Of a stretch of DNA of 64,000 nucleotides, positions 29,906 to 40,470 are shown piece by piece. The position numbers were made by a program, and so were the translations under genes. The first letter of the stretch is position 1. Each line of letters starts with the position of its first letter. The DNA is taken from contig LOEU01000024.1 in NCBI GenBank assembly GCA_001516025.1, positions 1 through 64,000 on the forward strand. The letters run 5' to 3'. The notes under the pieces were generated by a model. The model saw only the letters and a list, made by a program, of their open reading frames with translations. It ran no database searches and was not told the DNA's origin. Origin of the DNA: a bacterium BRH_c32. Lineage in GTDB: Bacteria; Bacteroidota; Ignavibacteria; Ignavibacteriales; Melioribacteraceae.

Positions 29906-29951
29906 CTTTACTTCTCCTCCAAAGGGAACACTTTTTATTACAAAGAACCGA

Positions 29952-29980
29952 AATATATTTTAATCCCTAATAAATGTCAA
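29952..29980 (-). promoter_or_regulatory. Promoter of rplM-rpsI
   Basis: TTGACA (29975-29980), 17-base spacer, TATATT (29952-29957) followed by TCG on the minus strand. Near-consensus vegetative promoter; predicted 5' leader is about 40 bases. The bases AATCTTGAC across the -35 are shared with the sufB promoter, but the second palindrome arm is absent here. Confidence 0.75.
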
Positions 29981-30156
29981 GATTACTCCCTTGTAAATAA
30001 ATAAGTTATCTCTTTTTTGTTGAGTTGCTTTATTCTTACACATTTTAGGTTATTACTATATTTACGTTATTTACTACTAAAATAAGAAAATTTTATTTTA
30101 TATAAAGAATATTTATATTTATTTTTTATATCAAATTTAATTGGAAGGAAAATATA

Positions 30157-34251: not shown

Positions 34252-34722
34252 TTAATTAGATGAGTTGCTGCCGGGTGCAACATCGAAGAGTGAAAATAAA
34301 TTATCTTCTGTACCAAGAAGGTCTTGAAGAGTCAAATTTACCAAAACATTATCCACTGCGTCCTGAATAATTTTCCATAATGAACGAACTGAGCACTCGG
34401 TAGTATTTGTACAAATATCATTCATCCCCGTATGACTTTGGCAAAAAGAATCATCATATAATCTTCCGCCAAGTACAAAAAGTACATCTATAATTTTTAT
34501 CTTATCGGGAGGAGCCGAAAGTGTGTATCCGCCCGATTGCCCTCTTTCACTTTCAAGGAATCCGCCCATTCGGAGAATGCGTAATATCTTACCCACATTG
34601 TGCTGCGAAATCCCTTCGTAAACGCTTATTTCAGGTATGGTAAGCGATTTTTCTACCTTGAAATACTTACCAATCCTGATTAAGCATCTTAATCCATATT
34701 CTTCTTGTGCACTAAATTTCAT
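34252..34722 (-). CDS. Rrf2 family regulator with three clustered cysteines
   Basis: 156 residues. Winged helix at the N-terminus (AQEEYGLRCLIRIGKYF, PEISVYEGISQHNVGKILRILRMGGFLESERGQSGGYTLS) as in IscR/CymR/RsrR. Cysteines C94, C104 and C110 (spacing 9 and 5) occupy the place of the iron-sulfur ligands of IscR-like members. It is the last gene of the suf operon and overlaps the bacilliredoxin gene by 4 bases, so it probably senses Fe-S status and feeds back on the operon; a matching inverted repeat lies at the sufB promoter. Confidence 0.9.
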   Translation of the reverse strand: MKFSAQEEYGLRCLIRIGKYFKVEKSLTIPEISVYEGISQHNVGKILRILRMGGFLESERGQSGGYTLSAPPDKIKIIDVLFVLGGRLYDDSFCQSHTGMNDICTNTTECSVRSLWKIIQDAVDNVLVNLTLQDLLGTEDNLFSLFDVAPGSNSSN

Positions 34723-35255
34723 TCTTCATTCAATGGAATTTTTGATCCGCATGAAATAAAATATTCTAGTTTAGCATATTTTTCAGGAGAAATTGAAGGA
34801 CCTACTCCTTTACAGAATTTGTCATATTCAGCAACCAAGTCGGCTGAAATCTCTTCGGCAGTTCTTCCTTCAATACCATATCTTGGCATTAAGAAAACCG
34901 ATTCACCTTCCTTGAATAATGCTATAAATGGAGATGACGGAGCTACACCCGGCAGATATTTATCTCTGAATAGTTCTAATGCATCTCTATCTTGACCTGC
35001 AAATAGCGTTAATAATTTATCGGGAATAACTGCATTCTGTAATGATAACGCTACTCCGGGACGTGCTGAACCAGCCGCACAGCCGCAAACAGAATTTATT
35101 ACCACCAAAACTGTTTCATTATTTTTTGGAGATAAAAATTCTTCGACCAACTGCGGAATAGTCAATTCCTTAAATCCAACATATAATAATTCATCCCTCA
35201 TCGGCTGAACTGCCTCAGGATCATATATCGGTGGTTTTATATTTATGTTATACAT
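34719..35255 (-). CDS. BrxA/BrxB family bacilliredoxin
   Basis: 178 residues. Thioredoxin-fold YphP/YqiW family with the CGC redox motif at C57-G58-C59 in VVINSVCGCAAGSARPGVALSLQ. Bacilliredoxins remove bacillithiol from S-bacillithiolated proteins. The protein is about 30 residues longer than the usual 140-145, and the extra C-terminus carries one cysteine in FISCGS and one just before it in KFCKG. Placed between sufT and the Rrf2 gene, 32 bases after sufT, within one transcript. Confidence 0.9.
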   Translation of the reverse strand: MYNINIKPPIYDPEAVQPMRDELLYVGFKELTIPQLVEEFLSPKNNETVLVVINSVCGCAAGSARPGVALSLQNAVIPDKLLTLFAGQDRDALELFRDKYLPGVAPSSPFIALFKEGESVFLMPRYGIEGRTAEEISADLVAEYDKFCKGVGPSISPEKYAKLEYFISCGSKIPLNEE

Positions 35256-35287: not shown

Positions 35288-35602
35288 TTATAAAAATCCT
35301 AATTCGAGTTTTGCCTCTTCGCTCATCATATCCATATTCCAAGTCGGCTCCCATACTAAATCCACATAAACTTCCTTAATGTCTTTTACCGTCTTCACCT
35401 TTGATTTTACTTCTCCGGGGAGACTTCCTGCCACAGGGCATGCAGGCGAAGTTAATGTCATTTTTATATACGTGTTCCCTTCATCGTCTATCTTAATTTC
35501 ATATATCAATCCTAATTCATAAATATCAACCGGTATTTCAGGATCAAATACAGTTTTTAGTCTATGAATAATATCCTGCTCTAATTTTCCTTTATCTATC
35601 AT
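35288..35602 (-). CDS. sufT: SufT / MIP18-type (DUF59) Fe-S assembly protein
   Basis: 104 residues from the ATG at 35602. DUF59 signature: RLKTVFDPEIPVDIYELGLIYEI and KMTLTSPACPVAGSLPGEV with the conserved cysteine of the TSPxCP motif. Members help maturation or carriage of Fe-S clusters. A TTG at 35620 in the same frame would add six residues and overlap sufS, but the ATG at 35602 has an AAGGGAA ribosome site and matches family N-termini. Confidence 0.9.
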   Translation of the reverse strand: MIDKGKLEQDIIHRLKTVFDPEIPVDIYELGLIYEIKIDDEGNTYIKMTLTSPACPVAGSLPGEVKSKVKTVKDIKEVYVDLVWEPTWNMDMMSEEAKLELGFL

Positions 35603-35612
35603 CTCTTTTCCC

Positions 35613-36869
35613 TTATGCAAACATTCTTTTTACTTTGAGTAAACTTTGAACTAATTTATCCACTTCTTCTTTGGTATTATAAAATGCAAATGAAGCTCTT
35701 GCAGTCGCAGGAAGCTTAAACCTCTCCATCAATGGCTGCGTGCAATGATGACCCGTCCTTATAGCAATTCCATCGGTATCAATTATTGTCCCTATATCAT
35801 AAGGATGGATTCCATCTATTACAAAAGAAATTACAGAAGCCTTTTTCTTTGCATTCCCTATTATTCTTAATCCGGCAATTTCATTTAATGAACCGGTAGC
35901 GTATTCTAATAGTTCATTTTCATATTTAGTCAGCTCATCTCTATCGAACTGATTAATATAATCGATAGCAGTTCCAAATCCGATTGAACCGGCAATATTT
36001 GGAGTACCCGCTTCGAATTTATGTGGGATATCATCATAGGTAGTTTTTTCAAATGTAACGGTGCGAATCATATCACCTCCACCTTGATATGGAGGCAGCA
36101 TTTCTAACATCTCTGTCTTACCATATAGAACCCCTATCCCCGTTGGTCCGAATGCCTTATGACCCGAAAGTGCATAAAAATCACAATCCAAATCTTGAAC
36201 GTCTATCTTCATGTGAGGAGCCGATTGAGCACCATCAACAAATACCGGAATGTTTTTTCTATGAGCTAAAGTAATGATCTCTTTTACCGGATTGATAGTA
36301 CCTAAGGCATTAGATATATGGACTACAGAAATGAATTTTGTTTTATCATTAAGCATTAATTTAAATGCTTCCATATCTAATTCACCTTCATCGGTAATCG
36401 GAATTACTTTTAATTTTATTTTGTCATGCTCCACTAAAAATTGCCAAGGGACAATATTAGCGTGATGCTCCATATGCGAAATAATTACTTCATCGCCCTC
36501 TTTGAAATAATTTGCTCTAGATAAAGATGCAGCTACTAAATTAATTGCTTCGGTTGTTCCCTTCACAAATATTAATTCTGAAGAACTGATTGCATTCAAA
36601 AATTCTTTCGCTTTGAGTCGTGCATTTTCATAAAATTCGGTGGCGATTTCGCTTAAGAAATAAAGTCCTCTATGAATATTCGCATTCTCAAATGAATAAT
36701 ATCTGGTTATGCTATCAATCACACATTGCGGTTTCTGGGAGGTTGCAGCATTATCTAAATAGACTAACTGCTTCCCGTTAACCGTGCGCTTTAAGATCGG
36801 GAAATCATTTCGTATCTCATCGAGATTAAATTTTCGCGCTTCTAATATTGCCGCTGCTTGCTTAATCAA
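35613..36869 (-). CDS. sufS: Cysteine desulfurase SufS
   Basis: 418 residues. Class II desulfurase: PLP lysine in ALSGHKAFGPTGIGVLYG, the substrate-loop cysteine in AIRTGHHCTQPLM, and NAATSQKP / SRANYF regions typical of SufS. Supplies persulfide sulfur to the SufBCD scaffold. TTG start at 36869, 12 bases after sufD; no better start before the conserved FDLDEIRNDFPIL-like helix. No sufE or sufU lies next to it although those are its normal sulfur acceptors. Confidence 0.95.
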   Translation of the reverse strand: MIKQAAAILEARKFNLDEIRNDFPILKRTVNGKQLVYLDNAATSQKPQCVIDSITRYYSFENANIHRGLYFLSEIATEFYENARLKAKEFLNAISSSELIFVKGTTEAINLVAASLSRANYFKEGDEVIISHMEHHANIVPWQFLVEHDKIKLKVIPITDEGELDMEAFKLMLNDKTKFISVVHISNALGTINPVKEIITLAHRKNIPVFVDGAQSAPHMKIDVQDLDCDFYALSGHKAFGPTGIGVLYGKTEMLEMLPPYQGGGDMIRTVTFEKTTYDDIPHKFEAGTPNIAGSIGFGTAIDYINQFDRDELTKYENELLEYATGSLNEIAGLRIIGNAKKKASVISFVIDGIHPYDIGTIIDTDGIAIRTGHHCTQPLMERFKLPATARASFAFYNTKEEVDKLVQSLLKVKRMFA

Positions 36870-36881
36870 AATTCATCCGGT

Positions 36882-38129
36882 TTAATTATTTTTTACTTCC
36901 ACTCGATTCAAATGCTCGAATACTAAGTGGTTTATCTGCTCTCTTAATTCATCGATCTTTATTTTTTCTATTACATCAGCTGCGAACGCACGTATCAACA
37001 TCGATTTAGCTATATCCTGAGGAATGCCTCTTGATTTTATATAAAACTCCGAATTTTCATCAAGCTGTCCCACAGCTGCTCCATGGCTGCACTTTACATC
37101 ATCAGCAAAAATTTCAAGCTGCGGCTTCGTATCAATTACGGCACTCTTTGATAATAAAACTGCCTTATTCGATTGATATGCATTAGTTTTCTGTGCATCG
37201 CGCCTTACCATAATTTTACCGTTGAAAACACCTCGAGACTCGCCGTCAAGTATTCCTTTATATAATTCATTGCTCATGCAATTTGGCTTTGCATGATCTA
37301 CATACGTGTGATTATCCACATGTTGTTTCTTATGAGCTAAATACAATCCATAAAAATGGCTTTCGATATTCTCGTCATTCAAACAGGTATTAATATCGTT
37401 TCGTGTAATGCTGCCACCGAATGTAAAATTATAATGATTGAATAAACTGTTTGCTTCCTGATATGCCTGCACTTTTTCAATATGGTAAGAATTTTCTTCT
37501 TCTGACTGAATTTTATATAAATCAACTATCGAATTTTTTCCTGCATAAACTTCTGTTACAATATTTGTTAAATACTCTTTCCCTTCAATACCATGATAAT
37601 TGGCAATAATAGATACTTGTGCATTTTCTTCAGCTATTATTAGATTTTTGGGAACTGACAAAACGTTCTCAGTTTTGTCTCCGTTTAAGTATAATACCTG
37701 GATCGGCTTATCTACTACTTTCCCCTTAGGTACAAATACAACTAATCCATTAGAAGAAAGAGAATTATTTATTTCATTAAACCCGTTATCGATAGTGGAA
37801 TATTTATTTAAATGTCTCGATAAAAGTTCGGAATTATTTTTTTGAAAATTAGAAAGACTATCTACGATTATTCCGCTTTCTAATCCGGTCAAATCTGATA
37901 ATTCGCCTGCAAAAATTCCATTAATAAAAACTACTTTGTAATAATCAAAATCTTGGAAGAAAAAATCATGCAAAACTGTCGAAAGATGATTTTCATAACC
38001 TAATGAAGCACCTAAAACATAATTATTTTTCATTATAGGAGCTACATTTGTGTATTTCCAATCTTCGTTTTTTGTAGTGGGGAGATTAAAATCCCGCAGC
38101 TCAATCATATTTAATAAATCATTTCCCAT
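36882..38129 (-). CDS. sufD: Fe-S assembly protein SufD
   Basis: 415 residues. N-terminal helical part (NLPTTKNEDWKYTNVAPI) and the beta-helix core with CSHGAAVGQLDENSEFYIKSRGI, the segment shared with SufB. Partner of SufB and SufC in the scaffold. ATG overlaps the sufC stop by one base (TAATG). Confidence 0.95.
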   Translation of the reverse strand: MGNDLLNMIELRDFNLPTTKNEDWKYTNVAPIMKNNYVLGASLGYENHLSTVLHDFFFQDFDYYKVVFINGIFAGELSDLTGLESGIIVDSLSNFQKNNSELLSRHLNKYSTIDNGFNEINNSLSSNGLVVFVPKGKVVDKPIQVLYLNGDKTENVLSVPKNLIIAEENAQVSIIANYHGIEGKEYLTNIVTEVYAGKNSIVDLYKIQSEEENSYHIEKVQAYQEANSLFNHYNFTFGGSITRNDINTCLNDENIESHFYGLYLAHKKQHVDNHTYVDHAKPNCMSNELYKGILDGESRGVFNGKIMVRRDAQKTNAYQSNKAVLLSKSAVIDTKPQLEIFADDVKCSHGAAVGQLDENSEFYIKSRGIPQDIAKSMLIRAFAADVIEKIKIDELREQINHLVFEHLNRVEVKNN

Positions 38130-38893
38130 TAGACATTCTCTTCAATTAGTTCATCATTTTTTATCCAATCATATCCCTTTTCTTCTAATTCTAGTGCTAA
38201 TTCTTTTCCACCTGATTTAATAATTCTTCCTTTTGAAAGGACATGGACATAATCAGGCACTATATAATCGAGAAGTCTTTGATAGTGAGTTACAAGTAAT
38301 ACTGCATTATCATTATTCTTAAATACATTTACCCCGCTGGAGACAATCTTCAAAGCATCGATATCCAAACCCGAATCTGTTTCATCAAGAAGTGCAAGTT
38401 TCGGTTGAAGCATTAGCATCTGAAGAATTTCATTTCTTTTTTTCTCGCCACCCGAGAAACCTACATTTACAGAGCGACTGATAAACTGTGGGTCCATTCC
38501 AAGCACACCGGATTTCTCTCTTAATAATTCCATAAATTCTTTCGGGGTAGCTTCAGGTTTTCCATTATATTTTCTTACTTCATTTAAAGCGGTTTTCAAA
38601 AATGTCGCATTGCTGATTCCGGGAATTTCTATTGGATATTGAAAAGCTAGAAATATTCCTTCTCTTGCTCTATCCTCAGGAGCTAATTCCACTAATTCTT
38701 TTCCTTCAAAATAAATTTCGCCATCTGTTACTTCGTATCCGCCATGTCCGGCAAGTACATTCGCAAGTGTACTTTTACCTGATCCGTTCGGTCCCATAAT
38801 TGCATGAACTTCACCGGCTTTGATTTCCAAATTGATTCCTTTTAATATTTCTTTACCTTCTACGTTCGCTTTTAGATTTTTTATAACTAACAT
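38129..38893 (-). CDS. sufC: Fe-S assembly ATPase SufC
   Basis: 254 residues. ABC ATPase: Walker [10 protein letters not shown], signature [15 protein letters not shown], Walker [17 protein letters not shown]. The Q-loop region [11 protein letters not shown] is characteristic of SufC. Drives conformational change of SufB-SufD. Twenty-nine bases after sufB. Confidence 0.97.
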
Positions 38894-38922: not shown

Positions 38923-40410
38923 TTAACCGACCGAGCTTTCGAGACTGATTGCCAATAGTTTTTGTGCCTCCACTGCAAACTCCATCGGAAGTTCATTGAA
39001 AACTTCCTTACAGAATCCATTTACAATCATATTCACAGCATCCTCGGTGGATATACCTCTTTGATTCAAGTAAAATATTTGGTCTTCGCCTACTTTTGAG
39101 GTTGTTGCCTCATGCTCCACTTTTGCCGTATCATTTTCAATCTCAATATATGGGAAGGTATGAGCACCGCATTTATCTCCCATTAGCATTGAATCACATT
39201 GAGTAAAATTTCTTGCGTTATCGGCTTTCTTACCTACCTTTACTAATCCTCTATATGAATTATTGCTTTTACCCGCCGATATACCTTTTGAAATAATTGT
39301 GCTGGAAGTATTTTTTCCTAAGTGAATCATTTTAGTCCCGGTATCAGCTTGCTGATAATTATTCGTTACTGCTACTGAATAGAACTCTCCAACCGAATAA
39401 TCCCCTTGCAAAATGCAGCTTGGGTATTTCCATGTTACTGCCGATCCCGTTTCTACTTGAGTCCAAGAGACTTTTGAATGATTTCCTCGGCATGCTGCTC
39501 TTTTTGTTACAAAATTATATATACCGCCTTTTCCTTCACTATTGCCCGGATACCAATTCTGAACTGTTGAATATTTTATCTCTGCATTTTCTAATATAAC
39601 CAGCTCCACTACTGCTGCATGTAATTGATTTGTATCTCTTATCGGTGCGGTACATCCTTCGAGATAACTCACGTAAGAACCTTCTTCGGCAATTATTAAT
39701 GTTCTTTCAAACTGTCCGGTTTCTTCATTATTTATTCTAAAGTATGTAGATAATTCCATCGGGCATCTAACGCCTTTCGGTATATAAACAAATGAACCAT
39801 CGCTAAATACGGCAGCATTTAAAGCCGCATAATAATTGTCTGTATAAGGGACTACCGAACCTAAATATTTTTTTACTAATTCCGGATGATCTTTTAATGC
39901 TTCGGAAACTGAGGAAAAAATTACTCCCTTTTCTTTTAATGTCTCTTTAAAAGTTGTAGCCACCGAAACTGAATCGAAAACTGCATCAACAGCAACACCC
40001 GAAAGAATTTTTTGCTCCTCAAGTGGAATTCCTAATTTCTCAAATGTTTTTAATAATTCAGGGTCAACTTCATCTAGACTATCTAATTGAGGCTTTTTCT
40101 TAGGTGCTGAATAATAAATAATATCCTGAAAATCGATCTTTGGATATTTTACATTGGGCCATTTCGGCTCTTCCATCGTCTGCCAATGCCTAAATGCTTT
40201 CAACCTCCACTCAGTCATCCATTCCGGTTCTCCTTTTTTTAGAGAAATGAAACGAACTATCTCTTCATTCAATCCTTTAGGAGCAGTATCAGATTCGATA
40301 TCTGTTATAAAACCCCATTTATACTCATTTTTCGTAACATCATTGAGTAACTGCATATCTTCAGATATTTCATCTTTTTCTTGCAGACCATTAGTCTTAA
40401 TTTCTTCCAT
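38923..40410 (-). CDS. sufB: Fe-S assembly protein SufB
   Basis: 495 residues. Full SufB with [63 protein letters not shown] and [22 protein letters not shown] in pieces. The main scaffold on which the cluster is built. First gene of sufBCDS-sufT-brx-rrf2; ribosome site AAGGGAAG precedes the ATG, and a clear promoter lies about 25-60 bases upstream. Confidence 0.97.
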
Positions 40411-40435: not shown

Positions 40436-40470
40436 CAAAATTATTGAATCTTGATAAAAAAGTCAAGATT
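40436..40470 (-). promoter_or_regulatory. sufB promoter with embedded perfect inverted repeat
   Basis: Minus strand: TTGACT (40461-40466), 17-base spacer, TAATTT then TG (40436-40443), which also fits the Bacteroidota TAnnTTTG element. A perfect inverted repeat, arms AATCTTGA (40463-40470) and TCAAGATT (40447-40454) 8 bases apart, covers the -35 and spacer. A repressor bound here would block RNA polymerase. The Rrf2 protein at the end of the operon is the obvious candidate. Confidence 0.7.

Follow-up and report, generated by a model that had tools for sequence, protein, structure and literature searches.

A conserved inverted repeat over the suf promoter of Ignavibacteria, a probable operator of the Rrf2 protein encoded last in the same operon

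Does the inverted repeat at the sufB promoter of this genome serve as an operator and, if so, for which regulator? The first-pass annotation of the window (the whole stretch of 64,000 nucleotides that was analyzed) had described, in a span comprising the dyad and the -10 element (40436-40470), a perfect 8-8-8 inverted repeat lying on a TTGACT-17-TAATTT promoter, and had pointed to an Rrf2 protein with three clustered cysteines as the product of the final gene of the sufB operon. The repeat was recovered from the sequence exactly as described, and the Rrf2 gene indeed closes the operon (Table 1). The minus-strand reading across the dyad and the promoter is AATCTTGACTTTTTTATCAAGATTCAATAATTTTG: the first arm continues into the -35 element, the second arm falls within the 17-base spacer, TAATTT follows, and the sufB ATG is at 40410.

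Table 1. Coordinates of the suf operon, its promoter and the candidate operator in the window
Feature	Position	Strand	Remarks
Operator dyad (candidate), AATCTTGA-N8-TCAAGATT	40447..40470	-	Arms 40463-40470 and 40447-40454
Promoter	40436..40466	-	-35 TTGACT 40461-40466, 17-base spacer, -10 TAATTT 40438-40443; TAATTTTG to 40436
sufB	38923..40410	-	NF008773 and TIGR01980 over cut-off
sufC, ABC ATPase	38129..38893	-	SufC name from operon position
sufD	36882..38129	-	SUFBD_core
sufS, class V aminotransferase, cysteine desulfurase	35613..36869	-	
SUF-associated SufT-like protein, FeS_assembly_P	35288..35620	-	TIGR02945 over cut-off
BrxA/BrxB-type bacilliredoxin	34719..35255	-	TIGR04191 over cut-off
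Rrf2 regulator, final gene of the operon	34252..34722	-	C94, C104, C110 (C-X9-C-X5-C), E8, R12, H97

Behind the promoter the genes run in the order sufBCDS-sufT-brx-rrf2, and rrf2 overlaps the bacilliredoxin gene by four bases. A bacilliredoxin gene as a member of the suf operon, flanked by sufT and rrf2, suggests that the thiol redox state is linked to Fe-S assembly. No NifU_N domain (IscU-type scaffold) was found in the organism's own genome, which is 94% complete, and SUF appears to be its only Fe-S assembly system.

As a generic repeat the dyad is unremarkable, and its significance lies in its conservation only. The window holds 8 perfect 8-8-8 repeats, compared with 2.45 in Markov-1 simulations, and the rarity of the bare repeat was for that reason dropped as evidence. 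With up to three mismatches the 24-mer occurs at a single place in the window, the dyad itself, 1.52 being expected from shuffles; in the 3.49 Mb genome the dyad is the sole exact match, and 61 places match with up to three mismatches vs. 46 for the reversed control.

SufB was detected in 77 of the 79 family genomes, and the sufB 5' regions of 71 of them were compared together with the window (72 genomes). The first-pass annotation had tied its reading to the persistence of the arms at suf promoters of relatives, and they do persist: 69/71 relatives and the window have the dyad upstream of sufB, i.e., 70/72 family genomes representing 32 genera. The best matches to the pattern AATCTTGAN8TCMAGATT have no mismatch in 44 genomes, one in 23, two in 1, three in 3, and six in 1 (G039). 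Two of the three-mismatch cases belong to genus g34 (ATTCTTGAC and GTCAAGAA or GTCAAGTA), and the third is a chance match in G040. Both arms are near invariant, the two C and the two G of the arms being conserved at 100% in genus-weighted counts; position 19 of the dyad is A or C, and the inner spacer consists of A/T. Immediately outside the dyad it is mainly the -10 element that is conserved, at a fixed spacing within the family. The column table underlying these statements has 71 rows, including the chance match of G040, which was left out of the matrix (70 sites, 32 genera). The two genomes without the dyad, G039 and G040, both belong to genus g17, and their 10 kb suf loci also lack the Rrf2 gene, the genomes being 81 and 77% complete, respectively; other Rrf2 genes are still present in them (one in G039, two in G040). 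Among the remaining 69 family loci, the Rrf2 gene is seen downstream in 55, and the other 14 end too early for it to show.

Outside the family, the site and this clade of Rrf2 proteins occur together. The class sample comprised 159 genomes, with the clade present in 66 (profile A1, E up to 1e-25) and SufB in 130. DNA upstream of sufB was taken from every clade-positive genome of the other families with a SufB match (49 genomes, G088 being clade-positive without such a match) and from 51 of the 65 clade-negative genomes. The matrix, built from the 70 family sites alone and applied to the other families of the class, found the arms in 49/49 clade-positive genomes (scores 13.2-30.2) vs. 0/51 clade-negative ones (scores of at most 0.4 in all 51). 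In the clade-positive genomes the site precedes the beginning of the SufB match by 38-265 bases. In 43/49 of them the rrf2 gene is on the sufB strand, 4.0-7.4 kb downstream as counted from the start of sufB, and in 6 it is on another contig. The clade-positive genomes span eight families (f2, f3, f5, f9, f12, f14, f21, and f22), and the clade-negative ones thirteen. These genomes are related, so that the counts are non-independent and presence or absence follows families; smaller contrasts within families are two only, genus g17 in f1 and genus g83 in f3. In family f3, G156 has neither the protein nor the site, both of which are present in the remaining f3 genomes examined.

Other Rrf2 proteins occur in 17 of the 18 clade-negative genomes examined, in several of them beside suf as judged by coordinates (e.g., G129, G147, G153, and G216), and the AATCTTGA dyad is absent from these genomes; therefore, it is this clade that the dyad goes with, and not just any suf-adjacent Rrf2 protein. 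Together with the joint absence of the gene and the site in genus g17, the clade co-occurrence supports the proposed link between the dyad and the operon-end Rrf2 protein. A different dyad, GACTA-N3-TAGTC, was observed upstream of sufB in 9/51 clade-negative class genomes (loci L323, L324, L328, L331, L333, L334, L339, L349, and L355), in some of which a different Rrf2 gene adjoins suf by coordinates; it may represent a second, unrelated suf operator.

The number of predicted targets is small. In whole-genome searches, exact matches to the 22-base ATCTTGAN8TCMAGAT concentrate at sufB, being present in 59/79 family genomes, each time at this gene. Elsewhere in the 79 genomes the pattern was found at nine places, including one next to suf in G063, and the reversed control gave two places. 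Pattern and matrix searches of the organism's own genome revealed no convincing second target. Two further matrix matches in this genome are C15:10492 (score 15.1) and the weak C25:49596 (score 9.4), the latter directly before a gene that we take to be MraZ-like; a one-mismatch place, C36:155216, was rejected since it lies within a coding sequence. Since the matches are nearly all at sufB and no second place is convincing, the regulon probably consists of the suf operon alone. A perfect dyad common to three genera (G011, G053, and G060) was taken as a chance coding match: the surrounding DNA is alike in G011 and G060 and, in our own reading, protein-coding, and no Rfam or tRNA matches were found at the dyads of these two genomes. 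Second copies of the operator were seen upstream of the first, a weaker one at 83 bases in G030 and G062 and a strong one at 232 bases in G063 (L155:8619-8642, L182:1311-1334, and L183:8770-8793); cooperative binding or a divergent promoter are possible explanations.

The candidate regulator belongs to the Rrf2 superfamily (PF02082, 87.3 bits vs. a cut-off of 30; TIGR00738, 86.9 vs. 73.3), and Foldseek matches to CymR, IscR, RsrR, and NsrR confirm the fold only. It scores below the cut-offs of the IscR (TIGR02010, 50.4 vs. 207.55 bits; PRK10857, 39.3 vs. 275), NsrR (PRK11014, 40.8 vs. 182), CymR (NF047409, 66.3 vs. 195), and TIGR02944 SUF regulator (58.7 vs. 110.65) models. Cys94, Cys104, Cys110, and Arg12 are invariant in 32 aligned members of the clade, with Glu8 and His97 conserved in at least 90%; in L156 two extra residues separate the first two cysteines. 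The AlphaFold model has a mean pLDDT of 75, and of 55-57 around the Cys region, where it is too weak for judging ligands. In the tree, which is based on few columns and has long branches, the clade forms one group (100/95), to which neither E. coli IscR and NsrR nor the paralogs nor the other upstream suf regulators belong; its sister is the Rrf2 protein encoded upstream of suf in L054 (100/92). In L054 the sister rrf2 gene precedes sufB, as the RisR gene does, and the promoter region holds TGGA-N8-TCCA, with a GA-N8-TC spacing that, read by eye, is that of the window dyad.

Rrf2 repressors of Fe-S operons with promoter dyads are already known, namely IscR and RisR, and RisR of Myxococcus xanthus is to our knowledge the only studied likely relative of the present kind of Rrf2 protein. 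As described in PMC9973013, RisR belongs to Rrf2 group IS6, which is said to include Chlorobi, carries C92, C102, and C108 and probably a [4Fe-4S] cluster, and recognizes T(t/g)GAC-N7-GTCC(t/a) across the -35/-10 region of suf, repressing in the holo form and being released in the apo form; it also controls isc. The two systems share an Rrf2 gene beside suf, the C-X9-C-X5-C spacing, and a dyad of GAC/GTC halves over the suf promoter. They differ in that the RisR gene lies upstream of suf, whereas the rrf2 gene of the window is last in the operon; the GAC-N7-GTC operator of RisR is replaced by one whose spacing is a base shorter, GAC-N6-(G/A/T)TC, with longer arms (AATCT/AGATT); and control of isc contrasts with the lack of a detected NifU_N domain and nearly one site per genome here.

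Like E. coli IscR at type 1 sites, the window protein has the Rrf2 fold and is predicted to sense a cluster and to feed back on the Fe-S operon that encodes it, and the site upstream of iscR, ATACCCGAC-N7-GTCAAGTAA, has GAC...GTCAAG in common with ours. Nevertheless, the type 1 spacing GAC-N7-GTC differs from GAC-N6-ATC in the window and (G/A/T)TC in the family, and the position of IscR His107 (a ligand in Cys3His1) is occupied by Arg113, conserved in at least 90% of the 32 members; IscR also falls outside the clade. NsrR of Streptomyces and E. coli also has three cysteines, with Asp8/Arg12 in place of Glu8/Arg12, but the Cys spacing is different, and the present site is found essentially at suf only, with none at NO genes. 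In NsrR the fourth ligand comes from the partner subunit, as Asp8, and is connected with the recognition helix through Arg12 (PMC5411485); by analogy, Glu8/Arg12 suggest an NsrR-like architecture. The TIGR02944 regulators (Xanthomonas type) are likewise encoded beside suf, but in L056, L065, L086, and L091 the Rrf2 proteins whose genes lie upstream of suf are not members of the clade; in L056 a GGACTAATTTAGTCC dyad precedes the rrf2 gene. Among the open-licence papers searched, we found no report, for this lineage, of this operator, its shorter spacing, rrf2 as the last gene, or a regulon of nearly one site, and no study of Fe-S homeostasis regulation in Ignavibacteria and relatives; the single paper to mention Ignavibacteria together with Rrf2 links an Rrf2 gene to a nos cluster (PMC3534657).

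From the observed conservation, clade co-occurrence, near single-target distribution, operon structure, and protein features, we infer with high confidence that the dyad is the operator of the operon-end Rrf2 protein, best read as a RisR-like Fe-S-sensing repressor that would keep the suf operon, to which its gene belongs, from being transcribed. An Rrf2 dimer with an Fe-S cluster would bind the 22-24-base dyad across the -35 element and the spacer and exclude RNA polymerase; since the dimer would cover both, occlusion is the simplest reading of repression. Probably three cluster ligands, Cys94, Cys104, and Cys110, come from one subunit, and Glu8 comes from its partner. When clusters are short or destroyed, the apo form would release the DNA, and sufBCDS, sufT, the bacilliredoxin, and rrf2 would be made. 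As rrf2 is itself part of the operon it would repress, a negative feedback loop on Fe-S supply would result, probably with one target. Such a specific, testable regulator-operator pair would bear on Fe-S homeostasis in Ignavibacteria and relatives, and the loop looks minimal, with one regulator, nearly one site per genome, and an apparently SUF-only organism.

It is unlikely, in our estimate, that the Rrf2 protein binds the dyad but mainly activates, or acts as the apo form in the manner of E. coli IscR at type 2 sites. MerR-type activation proceeds by realignment of the promoter, and the 17-base spacer here is near optimal and fixed in the family, so there is no need for a distortion-type activator; the site also covers the -35 element. 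Apo E. coli IscR does regulate type 2 promoters such as suf (PMC12594620), but RisR, which has the Cys spacing of the window protein, is a holo-form repressor released as apo (PMC9973013).

In a sample of the wider phylum, the clade is present in 40/296 genomes. Twelve further clade-positive loci (L390-L401) were inspected. Four loci of family f27 (L390-L393) have AATTTTGA(C/T)-N6-GTA(C/T)AGATT, and the four loci L398-L401, from f2 and f26, show the usual type of site; the matrix scores of these eight are 13.4-27.8. For L394-L397 the matrix failed (-0.5 to -19.1), and their sites are GTTTATAC-TTTTTA-GTACAAAC, ATTTATAC-TTTTTA-GTATAAAT, ATTTATAC-TTTTTT-GTATAAAT, and TTTGTAC-TTTTTT-GTATATA. L029 and L036 likewise carry ATTTATAC-N6-GTATAAAT upstream of sufB. 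These six Bacteroidia-branch sites share the frame AC-N6-GT, as in ATCTTGAC-N6-GTCAAGAT, and the corresponding Rrf2 proteins form one branch (100/100), in which the recognition helix reads Y-[VI]-[AG]-K-L-[TA]-R vs. mostly H-[NT]-x-[AG]-K-[IL]-L-R in Ignavibacteria. The change in the helix and that in the half-site are a single tree event in these sequences, and thus an association, not proof. Two more loci with this Rrf2 protein, L051 (labeled Latescibacterota) and L055 (Gemmatimonadota), keep AATCTTGA and lack the second arm (scores -1.2 and 0.7); L053 (Latescibacterota) has both arms (score 32.3) on a contig that ends before the place where the Rrf2 gene could show. All told, the matrix recognizes the site in 57 of the 65 genomes of other families that have the clade; of the eight failures, six show another half-site in an unchanged frame and two retain the first arm only; L020-L028, L031, and L032, largely genomes already counted, were left out of the counts. 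At some Bacteroidota-type suf promoters (L035, L037, L043, L060, and L081; 5/41 loci by strict patterns) a TTAGA-N5-TCTAA dyad was observed.

These data bear on a further alternative, namely that the dyad is bound by a different regulator, inherited along with this type of suf operon, and the Rrf2 protein acts elsewhere. Three other Rrf2 proteins are encoded in the genome, and co-occurrence alone does not show binding. We nevertheless consider this alternative very improbable, given that G039 and G040 retain other Rrf2 proteins with neither this one nor the site, that site presence matches the clade in 100/100 class genomes from other families, that the branch with an altered operator half-site has an altered recognition helix as well, and that the genome offers the Rrf2 protein no other convincing target. 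If the operon-end Rrf2 protein is the binder, repressor, operator, and promoter may have co-evolved, a suggestion to which we give slightly less than an even chance. One half-site doubles as the -35 element (TTGAC) and would hence be locked; only the second half would therefore be free to drift, giving TCMAGATT, GTACAGATT, and GTATAGATT. In Bacteroidia the TTGAC constraint is perhaps absent, and both halves would have turned into ATTTATAC/GTATAAAT along with an altered recognition helix. If true, the rules by which a little-studied Rrf2 subgroup recognizes DNA could be read as a code, and the operator series with the matching helix change would make direct testing of the DNA code of Rrf2 regulators possible.

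The first-pass annotation had cautioned that part of one arm might be promoter context, as AATCTTGAC also occurs at the window's own rplM -35 element. The caution is justified for CTTGAC: TTGAC lies within 300 bases upstream of rplM in 27/29 relatives, mostly as CTTGAC followed by A/T-rich bases, and the inner first arm is therefore partly promoter context. It does not extend to the outer AAT and the second arm, for which promoter context was rejected: AATC, and with it AATCTTGAC, occurs at only 5/29 rplM promoters, and the second arm is absent from all 29 rplM upstream regions (matrix scores of at most 0.7). That the conservation stems from promoter context throughout, with an extended -35 element and a spacer rich in A/T but no bound regulator, is the least probable reading, since, besides the rplM comparison, ATCTTGAC is not enriched in family DNA outside suf sites (17 vs. 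25.5 expected), the dyad is absent from the suf promoters of the 51 clade-negative genomes, and the near-invariant second arm sits in the spacer. Promoter-like TTGAC sites in family DNA numbered only 7, and this count was left out of the comparison. The rplM promoters themselves (about 29950-29990 on the minus strand of the window; L357-L385) have a common CTTGAC(A/T)TT ... TATATTTG layout, which helps to show what a housekeeping promoter looks like in this group.
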